This document shows, in pieces, positions 33,436 to 38,030 of a stretch of 64,000 bases of DNA; position 1 is the first letter of the stretch; each line of letters starts with the position of its first letter. This DNA is from Sulfurovum sp. AR (GTDB lineage: Bacteria; Campylobacterota; Campylobacteria; Campylobacterales; Sulfurovaceae). A model generated the notes under the pieces. The model had not been told where the DNA came from. It searched no databases and was given only the letters and a program-made list of their open reading frames with translations. Both the position numbers and the translations under genes were made by a program. The DNA is taken from assembly GCF_000296775.1 (NCBI RefSeq), contig NZ_AJLE01000006.1, positions 186,001 through 250,000 of the forward strand. Reading direction: 5' to 3'.

Positions 33436-33738
33436 TTTATATCCTTTAAATTAATGGGTTTTAAGTCTCTTCGACTGTTCTAGAAGTCTGTTCGGATAGC
33501 GTAAACGATACTAAATGATCGCCAACATAGACATAAATGCCTACATTTCCCTACTGATCACTTCAAATAACGTCGAATTATATCTTTATCATGATTAAAT
33601 TTTGTTAAATGCAAATCTATTTAGAATCACTTTTGTACTACCCTACCCGTATAGGGATTGATACATTCATTATCCCCCCTCATAATATGTACTATTTGAC
33701 TGAAAACTACATATGGTGTGCAATAAGCACTATGGTGC
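33436..33738. other. intergenic region between atpE and the exosortase gene
   Basis: About 300 bases between divergent genes, presumably holding the atpE promoter on the minus strand. I see no ORF. Near 33700-33744 short repeats (GTGCAATAAGCAC, GGTGCTATAG) surround the promoter of the next gene. Confidence 0.5.
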
Positions 33739-33744
33739 TATAGT
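33739..33744 (+). promoter_or_regulatory. -10 box placing a leaderless start on the exosortase gene
   Basis: TATAGT is followed by exactly six bases (ATTATT) and the ATG at 33751, and there is no ribosome site. The spacing equals that of three other genes in this window. Confidence 0.5.
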
Positions 33745-33750
33745 ATTATT

Positions 33751-34230
33751 ATGAAACGATTTGTATCTTTATACTTTTTATATTTGATAGTACTCTTTAT
33801 CTTGTTTTACAATGAAACTTCAATATTGAGTACTTTTATCAATGAAGTACAAACAAAACTCACACTTTTTTTTCTGGAAATATTTTTACAGCCAGGACAA
33901 CTTCAAGGTATTGATATTTGGATAAACCCCCAGTATAAAATTATTATTAACCATACATGTAATGGCATCATACCTATACTCTTTTTGTTTGCATCCATAC
34001 TTGCATACCCTTCTGGGCTATGGTATAAAATAGTGTGGATGAGTCTTGGATATACAATATTTTCATTTATAAATGTTTTTCGTATATTGTTAGTAGTCTA
34101 TTTTGTAGAACAAGAAGGAGAACAAGAAAATTTTTATTGGTCGCATGACCTTATTGGCAATGCGCTATTGATAAGTGTTGGATTGGGACTTTTTATAGCA
34201 TTTATCAAACTATCAAGAAAACGGAGTTAG
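33751..34230 (+). CDS. exosortase/archaeosortase-family transpeptidase
   Basis: A 159-residue multi-pass membrane protein with the catalytic triad of the exosortase/archaeosortase family: Cys in INHTCNGIIPILF, Arg in FINVFRILLVVYF and His in FYWSHDLIGNAL. Such enzymes cleave a C-terminal sorting signal and attach the substrate to a carrier or lipid (family knowledge). It is short, near the minimal size for the family. A 958-residue DUF11 protein with a sorting-signal-like tail is encoded 0.7 kb away and is the evident substrate. No EPS operon is nearby, unlike classical PEP-CTERM systems. Confidence 0.82.
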   Translation: MKRFVSLYFLYLIVLFILFYNETSILSTFINEVQTKLTLFFLEIFLQPGQLQGIDIWINPQYKIIINHTCNGIIPILFLFASILAYPSGLWYKIVWMSLGYTIFSFINVFRILLVVYFVEQEGEQENFYWSHDLIGNALLISVGLGLFIAFIKLSRKRS

Positions 34231-34257
34231 ATCATTCTCTAACTCTGTAGTTTCTTA

Positions 34258-34929
34258 TTAAAAGTCGTAAGTGATACCGAAACTAACTATATTTGTTTTA
34301 TAGTTATCTGGTCCCTTATTATGCATAAGATTTTGATAATCTATCCAAAGGCCCCAGCCTTTTTCTTGATCGCCATGTCCATCAAATTCTCTATCAAAAG
34401 TCAGAACATCCGATTCATTCTCTTTGTGGGCCTCATAGTCATCCTCTTTATCAGAAAGGTCATATTCAAGTCCTATACCATAACTGAAACCATTATAGGT
34501 ATATTCATCCTTTAGAAAAGGACAGTCAGTTTCGACTTTTGTATGACCATATCCAAGAAGACCATAGATATTCATCTGTTCACCTACTGGCATCATTGGT
34601 TTAAGAAAAATGCCGTAATGTGTTGTTTTATCTGCCCAGTCACTCTCTATACTTGATTGAAGTGCACGAGCTTCTATCCCGATATATTGATTATAATCAT
34701 ACCCTGCTCTTACTATTCCTCCCCATGTGGAATCTTTCAATCTGACATTTCTATCAGGAGGACAAAAACAATCTCTGCTTATTCCTGCCCAAAGAAGACC
34801 TACACCGACATAAAAAGGATTTGGATCAACCTCTTCTATCGGTACCACTGGAGCGATATTACCCCCTCCAAATAGACTGCTTGTTGCCATAAGTGAACTA
34901 AGCGTCATTATTTGTATTGTTTTTTTCAT
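34258..34929 (-). CDS. outer-membrane beta-barrel protein (OmpW/OmpA-barrel type)
   Basis: A 223-residue protein with a signal peptide (MKKTIQIMTLSSLMATSS) and an eight-strand-like small barrel: NPFYVGVGLLWAG, GIVRAGYDYNQYIGIEARAL, MNIYGLLGYGHTKVE, YNGFSYGIGLEYDL and the closing NIVSFGITYDF with terminal Phe. One extracellular loop holds CFCPPD, and one holds an acidic DKEDDYEAHKENESD stretch. The ATG at 34929 has a strong GGGAGGGG ribosome site. It lies 13 bases after the DUF11 protein gene, so the two form an operon. Confidence 0.75.
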   Translation of the reverse strand: MKKTIQIMTLSSLMATSSLFGGGNIAPVVPIEEVDPNPFYVGVGLLWAGISRDCFCPPDRNVRLKDSTWGGIVRAGYDYNQYIGIEARALQSSIESDWADKTTHYGIFLKPMMPVGEQMNIYGLLGYGHTKVETDCPFLKDEYTYNGFSYGIGLEYDLSDKEDDYEAHKENESDVLTFDREFDGHGDQEKGWGLWIDYQNLMHNKGPDNYKTNIVSFGITYDF

Positions 34930-34942
34930 CTTTACCCCTCCC

Positions 34943-37819
34943 TTATCTTTCATTTCTGTTATATTTTTCTTCTCTTCTGACAAAAATAAGTCCGATCAGC
35001 AGAGTCATACATATCATCAATAGACCGACTGTTTTATTCATAGCTGAAGCACTATCACTTGAAATGTTGTCACATGGACAGCCAACTATCACAATTGCAG
35101 TAGCTTTATCATTTTCACCATTTGTATCATTCTGGTCAAGTCTCTCGGTATCGATTATAACATTGTTGATCAGTATATCACCCGTACTATTGAGATCTAC
35201 CATTGCTGTAACCGTTAGAACAGCTGTTTGACTAACATTAAGCTCAGGTATATGCCACCATGGTGCATTGAAGGTTCCAAGTGTAGTATCTGTCCCTGTG
35301 ATTGAAAGATTACCATCAAATGGCTCTTCTTGGACATAAATATTAGTTGCATCAAGTGGGCCATAATTTGTCACACTGATCGTATATACAATAGTATCAC
35401 CTTCTTGAGGGTTTGGATTATCTACTGTTTTCGTTATACCCAAGTCTGCAGGGTTACTAGCATTAAATGTAGCAGATGCAATATCATCATCAGGATTGGT
35501 GTCAGTGGTGTCAGTACTCACAGATGCTGTATTTACAATAGGATTATGTAATGTTGCATTGGTATCAACAGTAGCTTGAATTATGAGAGTCTCAACAGAA
35601 TTACTCATTGTACCAATATCCCATATTCCAGTTGTCTCATCATAACTTCCTACGGATGCAGTAGAATCAACATAGCTGACCCATGGAGGCAAGATATCGT
35701 TCACTACAACATTTTCCGCATCATCAATACCAAATTTTGTCACTGTGATAGTATAGTTGATATCTTCTCCCTCATAAGGAGTTGGATTACTGACAGTTTT
35801 GACTATTTGGAGATTAACCACAGGGATATGAATGGCAGTAATGTTTGCATCATCCTGATCATTGGTATCGGTATCATTTGTATCAGTAGTAGATGCGATA
35901 TTTTGAATCACTGTCAAATCTCCTGCTGTCTGACTTACATTGACATCGATAAATAGCTCTGCACTACCATCAAGAGCCAAATTACCAACCATCCACTGTC
36001 CAGCTCCATATGTTCCCTGGGTGGCATAATAGCCGATATAGTTCACGTTAGCAGGGAGCACATCATTTACCGTAACATCCGTTGCACCATCTGGTCCGTT
36101 ATTGGTAACGGTTATCCTGTAATAAGCTGGACTTCCTTCACTGAGCTCGATTGTGTCCACCCAACTTGCATTATCATCACTGACTTCTTTTGTGATGTCA
36201 AGGTCAAAATTAAGAGGAAGCACACGGATCTGATCATATACAACGGCACTCTTGTTAACTGCACAGCTCGTAGTTGTAGCATTGATCTCACCCGTAGCAA
36301 TATTATCATCCAAACCGGTTGGAAGTCCTATTTTGACAAGGAGATTGATCGATTCACCTGCACCAAGGGCTAGAGGTCCTCCGGTTAAGTTTTCCTCACC
36401 TAGATCTTCTACACCATTACCATTAGCATCATTATAATACTCTATATAGGTGACAGTAAAATCACTCTCTGTTTGGGTTAAACTTAAAGTTAAATTCTCA
36501 TCCCCATTTCCAGTATTGGTAAGATTATGTTCAAAGTAAACTGGTCCAACAGAACCACTAGGAAGTATGATAGAACGATCCGGCACCAACGTAACACCAC
36601 AATACCTAAGTGTCGCTTCACCATAACATCCTGCCATATTATCATCAACCTGACCTGGAGGATTGTTATCATTGACTGAAGAATTCATAGTACTGATATG
36701 GTAAGTAATTCCCTGGAATGGCGTTAATCCGATGGCATCCCAGCGAACACGCCACTCCATTGTAACACCTGCATCATCAAGTCCTCCACTAGCTTCAGTC
36801 ACTCCCTGTGCAAGACCATTACCTGCAGCGATTAAATCTACACCACTGCCTGTATCAAGATTTCCTGCCAGCGTATAGCCATCTCCAGATCCTATCCAAG
36901 AAGTGTCTGGTGTCTGTCCACCAGGAGGCAATTTACCTGCATCTATATCTGCCTGTGTCCATACCATAGAATCACCATTCACAAGATCAGCAGGTAAATA
37001 AGGATAATAATACAGTGATGTTGCTCCCGTATTACCCTGCCAACCAGCTACAAGTGCGAAATCCTCTGCTTCCATTCTACCATCACCATCTCTATCTGCA
37101 TAATAGATAAATGTCTGAGTATTGGTACTTGAACCTACTCTTCGCGTAAATCCATAGGCAAAGTCATTATCTCCCGTCCATGTAAACTGAACCAGGTTTC
37201 TACCTGTAGATTGAACAATCGCATCTTTGTCTTCTGAATCTCCATGGTCACATACATTATTGTCGGCATCCGTATGAACACTTTCCCAATCACTAACATC
37301 ACCGTTAATATTTATCGTTTTTTTAATAATAATGCCATCTGCACCCTCACAGACACAATCCCCACCAAATTGAAATCCAAAGTCCTGATTTTCATAAATT
37401 GTATCCTCTTCTCCAGGATCAATAGTATAGTATGTCTCACCGTTTGTTCGGTTTGTATCAGTCCCATCACCCAATGGATCCACTGTGAAGTGAGTATTTA
37501 CCGGAGGGGTAGCTACTGTATCTTTTCCATCAGCATTATTGTCAAGAAAAACTTTAAATTGTCCTGTTTTACTATGTGTATTGAACTCAAAATAACCTGA
37601 TGTTTCAGGATCTATACTGTAAAGATTTTTAGATACCTCTACATGCCCAGTAGAAAGATTTACAATCTTTGCCCAAACAGCCTCCTCTGCACAAATTTCC
37701 CCGGGATCTTTAATACCATCCCCATTCACATCCTCAAAACAATAGCCTGAAATCACTGCAGCCGAAAGATTTGTCAACAACAGTGCACCTAAGATCATTA
37801 TTAATTTGATTAATTTCAT
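34943..37819 (-). CDS. large DUF11-repeat surface protein with exosortase-type C-terminal signal
   Basis: A 958-residue exported protein (signal MKLIKLIMILGALLLTNLSA). An SdrD_B-like domain with Ca-loop-like DVNGDGIKDPGE opens it; then a carbohydrate-binding/DOMON-like region (about 165-400, with YYADRDGDGRMEAEDF); then DANGNGVEDLGEENL; then three DUF11 repeats starting near DLDITKEVSD, NLQIVKTVSN and DLGITKTVDN. The end reads SDSASAM, a hydrophobic helix (VGLLMICMTLLIGLIFV) and basic RREEKYNRNER, the three-part layout of an exosortase signal, but without a PEP or IPTL motif. Likely anchored on the cell surface by the neighbouring enzyme. Confidence 0.8.
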   Translation of the reverse strand: MKLIKLIMILGALLLTNLSAAVISGYCFEDVNGDGIKDPGEICAEEAVWAKIVNLSTGHVEVSKNLYSIDPETSGYFEFNTHSKTGQFKVFLDNNADGKDTVATPPVNTHFTVDPLGDGTDTNRTNGETYYTIDPGEEDTIYENQDFGFQFGGDCVCEGADGIIIKKTININGDVSDWESVHTDADNNVCDHGDSEDKDAIVQSTGRNLVQFTWTGDNDFAYGFTRRVGSSTNTQTFIYYADRDGDGRMEAEDFALVAGWQGNTGATSLYYYPYLPADLVNGDSMVWTQADIDAGKLPPGGQTPDTSWIGSGDGYTLAGNLDTGSGVDLIAAGNGLAQGVTEASGGLDDAGVTMEWRVRWDAIGLTPFQGITYHISTMNSSVNDNNPPGQVDDNMAGCYGEATLRYCGVTLVPDRSIILPSGSVGPVYFEHNLTNTGNGDENLTLSLTQTESDFTVTYIEYYNDANGNGVEDLGEENLTGGPLALGAGESINLLVKIGLPTGLDDNIATGEINATTTSCAVNKSAVVYDQIRVLPLNFDLDITKEVSDDNASWVDTIELSEGSPAYYRITVTNNGPDGATDVTVNDVLPANVNYIGYYATQGTYGAGQWMVGNLALDGSAELFIDVNVSQTAGDLTVIQNIASTTDTNDTDTNDQDDANITAIHIPVVNLQIVKTVSNPTPYEGEDINYTITVTKFGIDDAENVVVNDILPPWVSYVDSTASVGSYDETTGIWDIGTMSNSVETLIIQATVDTNATLHNPIVNTASVSTDTTDTNPDDDIASATFNASNPADLGITKTVDNPNPQEGDTIVYTISVTNYGPLDATNIYVQEEPFDGNLSITGTDTTLGTFNAPWWHIPELNVSQTAVLTVTAMVDLNSTGDILINNVIIDTERLDQNDTNGENDKATAIVIVGCPCDNISSDSASAMNKTVGLLMICMTLLIGLIFVRREEKYNRNER

Positions 37820-38030
37820 TTTCTTTCCCTTCCTCGTATATTATTTTATTGTACATCAATAATATAAAAATATCAATATTAATCATAATTATATTTATTG
37901 AAATTACTTAGGGAGAAAAGGGATTTTTAAAATACGAATTTTATAGAATATGTAGAAAAGTATATAACATATACTGAGAATAAACCTTCTGTACTTTTGC
38001 CAAAAATGGACAAAGTATAGAAGAAAAAAT

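Follow-up and report, generated by a model that had tools for sequence, protein, structure and literature searches.

The atpE-pnp locus of Sulfurovum sp. AR

The window analysed here is a stretch of 64,000 nucleotides from Sulfurovum sp. AR, a host described as a deep-sea bacterium (contig NZ_AJLE01000006.1, positions 186,001 to 250,000). Between atpE and pnp it carries a cassette with genes on both strands (33586..37978, delimited by flank comparison with the genome G453), which encodes an exosortase, an outer-membrane beta-barrel protein and a large adhesin with a putative C-terminal sorting signal. This candidate system for surface proteins and its relatives in the genus are the subject of the present report.

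The exosortase-family protein (159 residues; 33751..34230, + strand) is of an unnamed subtype nearest to XrtH and XrtX. It scored 42.6 bits against PF09721 (cut-off 25.7) and 53.2 bits against TIGR04178 (cut-off 23). Its predicted nucleophile Cys70 (codon 33958..33960) and the predicted catalytic residues Arg111 (34081..34083) and His132 (34144..34146), all on the + strand, stand in the contexts CNG, NxxR and HDxxGN and were invariant in 20 relatives; the superfamily motifs CxG, NxxR and HxxxG are thereby represented by C70-N-G72, N108..R111 and H132..G136. By these sequence criteria the protein is a member of the exosortase/archaeosortase superfamily, as an earlier note on this DNA had recognized from its Cys, Arg and His. 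The same note had called the enzyme minimal, which did not hold, 159 residues being ordinary for the class (the XrtH and XrtX models comprise 158 and 168 positions). A structure model (pLDDT 79.9) contained helices at residues 2-20, 25-45, 73-85, 90-122 and 125-158; searches of the PDB gave no match to the sequence and none to the fold of the model at E <= 0.001, and provided no structural template.

The presumed substrate is encoded on the opposite strand (34943..37819, -) by an open reading frame (ORF) of 958 codons with DUF11 matches (216 bits). It begins with a signal-peptide-like stretch, MKLIKLIMILGALLLTNLSA (37760..37819, -), and contains three DUF11 (CLIPPER) stalk repeats (35096..36205, -; at 35096-35446, 35468-35812 and 35846-36205), a type of domain found in the stalks of fibrillar adhesins and in many cases isopeptide-bonded (PMC12617251). 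The tail, SDSASAMNKTVGLLMICMTLLIGLIFVRREEKYNRNER, has the tripartite layout of motif, helix and basic residues, and the predicted sorting signal, SDSASAM...VRREEKYNRNER (residues 921-958; 34946..35059, -), was recognized by this layout and by a signal profile, in agreement with the earlier reading of this C-terminus. The gene of the barrel, an OmpX-like protein of 223 residues (34258..34929, -; PF13505, E 2.7e-18), begins 13 bp beyond the stop codon of the adhesin on the same strand, in agreement with the proposal that both form one operon. The exosortase gene is convergent with it and ends 712 bp from the end of the adhesin gene, which corresponds to the 0.7 kb estimated before; an 8-bp perfect inverted repeat between the convergent genes, GAGTTAGA tcattc TCTAACTC (34224..34245), is possibly a two-way terminator.

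Single matches were obtained in the window genome (2.13 Mb) for the PF09721 exosortase, for the DUF11 protein and for the signal profile, the last being the outcome of a search for further signal proteins that the earlier note had suggested. Because of these single matches, and because exosortase, signal-bearing adhesin and barrel are all kept in relatives, the trio is, as judged from the sequences, beyond chance. A natural knockout was found in G453, a genome of the same species: on either side of the cassette the identity is 98.6%, the matching flanks ending at 33585 and resuming at 37979, and positions 33586-37978 between them are exactly replaced, with a clean junction, by unrelated sequence of about 7.6 kb. 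The replacement is a polysaccharide-type cassette with genes for a glycosyltransferase, a TPR/barrel protein, DUF2334 and GH26. By this comparison the trio behaves as one cassette in the window species.

The slot between atpE and pnp (33436-38030; L140, L188-L191) resembles a hotspot for surface cassettes: the sortase/adhesin trio occupies it in the window genome and in G374, it is empty in G412, and DUF2334- and GH26-type genes adjoin pnp also in G415, G416 and G420. By pnp in G374 (L077) the adhesin is split into two ORFs of 310 and 828 residues, possibly by a frameshift or an assembly error.

The putative sorting signal and its co-occurrence with the exosortase

From 42 related tails the consensus [KRTS]SD[SG]G[DSP][AT][LM]G-helix-VR[RK]EE was derived, a step which had been recommended when the signal was first noticed. 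Highly conserved were the S (41/42) and the D (39/42) of the motif and the G before the tail (39/42); SD is usually followed by G[DSP][AT][LM]G and the helix, after which come a T and a G that hardly vary and then VR[RK]EE. A Cys is common a few residues ahead of SD, and several signals, e.g., VMVEGTRSDSGDA, lack it.

The suspicion that the signal has no named motif, and is possibly new, was supported, since the tails matched none of the IPTL, PEP, LPXTG and MYXO types. Among 34 signals, IPTL_CTERM (TIGR04174) gave two matches at E <= 0.05 (best 0.0027), the PEP-CTERM models one weak Pfam match (E 0.024). A search of 18 genomes with IPTL_CTERM yielded nothing over the cut-off of 20.5 bits, which no tested signal reached. 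The IPTL type was rejected on these scores and the PEP type on its single weak match, the PEP motif being absent. TIGR01167 (LPXTG) matched some tails weakly through helix and basic tail, the LPXTG motif itself being absent there, and this type was likewise rejected; the MYXO type was dismissed because the invariant Cys of its signature motif is not a constant feature of these tails. A chance hydrophobic tail was rejected in view of the conservation in 42 tails and the absence from almost every exosortase-minus genome. The idea that the DUF11 domain determines sorting was also discarded, since the genus has other DUF11 proteins, encoded next to minor pilins, that lack an SD signal. These long proteins (L071, L078, L080, L086, L087) share a conserved C-terminus of their own and represent an internal control.

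Co-occurrence was determined with a signal profile (A1), which was built from nine DUF11 tails and used, like PF09721, to search 78 genomes of the genus, mostly fragmented assemblies. Statistics were based on the 40 high-quality genomes, defined by a completeness of 90% or more and a contamination of 5% or less. Of these, 23 had enzyme and signal, none had the exosortase alone, one had the signal alone and 16 had neither (Fisher p 2.7e-10; 6e-9 if the signal-free genome G424 is counted as exosortase-positive). Kinship was taken into account by placing 29 genomes on a Pnp tree, from which a 375-residue ORF of G421 was left out. Presence changed state 9-10 times on this tree. Well-supported branches offered six independent contrasts; on average the signal changed in the same direction as the exosortase in 5.8 of them, and in the opposite direction in none. 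The sign test gave p 0.03, which is the floor for that number of contrasts. Failure to co-occur in other genomes had been named beforehand as a refutation of the enzyme-substrate pairing, and the pairing came through, both in the counts and in the joint changes on the tree. The notion of one dedicated neighbouring substrate applies to the window genome; elsewhere in the genus a genome can contain several signal genes, and the enzyme is usually encoded away from them, most often within a cluster for the type II secretion system (T2SS).

The order-wide search detected the signal in sister genera as well, with weak matches in G368 and G094 (E 7.7e-4 and 9.7e-4) and a match covering part of the model in G041. 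Six genomes (G025, G308, G320, G041, G368, G094) had the signal without a PF09721 match; a family model of the exosortase (A4), which includes one row from G025 itself, detected the enzyme in all six. With A4 no exosortase was found in the majority of signal-free genomes, G453, G206 and G152 among them. G326 carries an exosortase pseudogene interrupted by stops, together with a degraded signal that matches weakly.

A4 also revealed a distant exosortase in G424 (L255:4022-5532), directly behind a gene for a 333-residue protein with a different tail (GSAPAFN), ending in GSAPAFNMGSILVICFMFVLLFYRKRVSRRS, and with a barrel-like gene upstream; this is possibly a second pair of enzyme and signal that uses another motif. 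In another family of the order (L004, L005, L015, L018, L026) a distinct set of short exosortases was seen, with the gene of a conserved protein of about 200 residues after each; one of these neighbours ends in NDVTVPLSPFALLLLVILMGFFGYRKAY, a JDVT-like tail.

The barrel gene is the immediate downstream gene of 35 of the 50 testable signal genes, and in most of these cases the two lie 0-20 bp apart or overlap slightly. A high-scoring barrel subfamily, defined by a threshold (E < 1e-35) picked after the gap in scores had been seen, was present in 22/24 signal genomes and in 0/16 others.

Position of the exosortase gene relative to T2SS genes

Judged by coordinates, the exosortase gene lies within 2 kb of gspG in 26 of the 40 exosortase-bearing genomes of the genus; in two further genomes, G426 and G441, its neighbour is gspF or gspI. 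It stands exactly between gspF and gspI in G141 (L168), a site that is empty in the close relative G206 (L169) and in the window genome (L167). In sister genera other points of the T2SS clusters are occupied: G308 has the gene by gspI, G368 behind a gspJ-like gene, and G094 and G251, accompanied by the barrel gene, after gspE; in G094 the T2SS genes form an unbroken run with those of barrel, exosortase and adhesin. Other placements are beside the adhesin or beside glmS, the gene standing directly behind glmS in G302, G405, G409, G442 and G443 (L171-L173, L175, L176). No earlier report of a T2SS-sited exosortase was found in the literature searched, nor any paper on an exosortase of Sulfurovum or of the Campylobacterota.

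Proposed mechanism, alternatives and significance

Taken together, the enzyme and its signal rather likely constitute a new exosortase/sorting-signal subtype which would process a fibrillar adhesin, with T2SS as the probable route across the outer membrane. The adhesin would be exported by Sec via its predicted signal peptide and held in the inner membrane by the C-terminal helix, with the SD[SG] motif on the periplasmic face. EpsH-family enzymes have been proposed to use Cys, Arg and His for cutting their tag on the outer side of the inner membrane (PMC1569441); the present exosortase could similarly cut near SD[SG] with Cys70, Arg111 and His132, removing helix and basic tail. The cut adhesin might then be either released or handed to an acceptor, presumably a lipid, substrates of archaeosortases being described in PMC7157517 as ending up lipid-anchored. 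T2SS takes the substrates of rhombosortase and myxosortase, which bear comparable tags, across the outer membrane (PMC11980579). The adhesin, very large and folded, would most likely follow the same route, and the co-encoded barrel could be the outer-membrane partner that retains it at the surface. The earlier description of the system as self-contained is appropriate insofar as the trio behaves as one cassette in the window species; functionally it is doubtful, because crossing of the outer membrane probably needs T2SS.

Several observations weigh against this interpretation. T2SS occurred in 40/40 high-quality genomes of the genus, with or without exosortase, so that its presence does not discriminate and the argument is one of position. 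Much of the 26/40 is accounted for by common descent from a single insertion, the exosortase gene is antisense to its neighbours in the T2SS cluster, which excludes simple co-transcription, and in the window genome it is not near T2SS genes. No signal was detected in the exosortase-bearing genomes G442, G443, G427 and G434, none of which is over 90% complete, and G439 has a signal, on a 3.5-kb contig, without a detected exosortase. Fifteen of the 50 signal genes have no adjoining barrel, G224 and G449 apparently lack the barrel subfamily, and the single-sequence structure model of the barrel (pLDDT 30) permits no claim about its strand number. What the comparison shows, finally, is the linkage of enzyme, signal and barrel, the conservation of signal and catalytic residues and the proximity to T2SS genes; cleavage, anchoring, the acceptor, the passage through T2SS, the barrel's role and adhesion are inferred.

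Three other explanations were considered. The system could be a divergent XrtH/IPTL-CTERM system (TIGR04177/TIGR04174), i.e., the same enzyme subtype and signal after drift and nothing new. Both have a short exosortase with Cys, Arg and His and a motif-helix-basic tag, and XrtH is the best named subtype, in the definitions of NCBIfam, for the window enzyme; the tails APSLGTWG (G163) and GDTLGNWS (G224) align with IPTLxxWG, which suggests descent from, or convergence with, IPTL, and one signal reached 14.7 bits with IPTL_CTERM. However, every exosortase subtype model scored the window enzyme far under its own cut-off, XrtH with 44.6 bits (44.1 and 45.2 for the members from G163 and G251) against 86 required; XrtX (NF046081), with a cut-off of 170 bits and scores of 38.1 for the window enzyme and 66 for the G163 member, matched an equal number of family members, all 20 at E <= 1e-3, with a better top score than XrtH. 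Moreover, the conserved element of the signal is SD[SG] instead of IPTL, and the barrel partner and the linkage to T2SS genes are features of the present family as sampled here. Because the enzyme is under every subtype cut-off and the signals match no named type, the family was classed as new, and mere drift from XrtH appears unlikely.

It would be similarly improbable that the exosortase only strips the helix, the adhesin being secreted in soluble form and the barrel being an unrelated outer-membrane protein co-transcribed for assembly or regulation. An enzyme for a lipid or glycan acceptor was not seen adjoining the trio, and rhombosortase substrates are known to be released through T2SS (PMC11980579); the tight and recurrent adhesin-barrel gene pair and the stalk architecture of the DUF11 protein suggest instead that it is kept at the surface. 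Quite possible, on the other hand, is that the proximity to T2SS is a historical accident, one gspF-gspI insertion having been passed down within the genus without any relation to T2SS function. The same position in most members, the antisense orientation and the ubiquity of T2SS are in its favour, whereas the different positions in the sister genera speak against it; the chance of at least three T2SS placements among about 10 distinct locations would be ~1e-4, a rough figure with locations counted by hand. The competing proposal, that this exosortase lineage is wired to T2SS, with trimming at SD[SG] freeing tethered adhesins for T2SS and the barrel receiving them, is put forward tentatively, as a conceivable function of these placements.

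Among better known systems, the PEP-CTERM/EpsH exosortase A (PMC1569441) shares the CxG, NxxR and HxxxG motifs, the tripartite tag and the signal peptide of the substrate. It differs in its PEP motif and its 8-TM enzyme, compared with about 159 residues here; the window cassette has no adjoining exopolysaccharide locus, and the present family usually has one or few substrates. Rhombosortase/GlyGly-CTERM and myxosortase/MYXO-CTERM (PMC3237569, PMC11980579) are similar in their tripartite tags, in the use of T2SS by their substrates and in the tendency of dedicated enzyme-target pairs to adjoin, as here. Their enzymes, however, belong to unrelated families. Here, moreover, it is the sorting enzyme whose gene is placed within T2SS clusters; for rhombosortase, Haft et al. 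(2011) were unable to establish a link to any T2SS subclass (PMC3237569).

How substrates of Gram-negative exosortases pass from the inner membrane to the surface was left open in the literature searched. A small, often single-substrate system with two candidate partners, barrel and T2SS, makes this question testable on one enzyme and one adhesin, and the natural knockout in the same species and the decaying relative add to this testability. The family also yields NCBIfam-style models for a hitherto unnamed enzyme and signal. Sulfurovum is abundant at vents and seeps, and the system is a candidate mechanism for its adhesion. If a T2SS-wired lineage indeed exists, it would give bacterial exosortases a route of export across the outer membrane.

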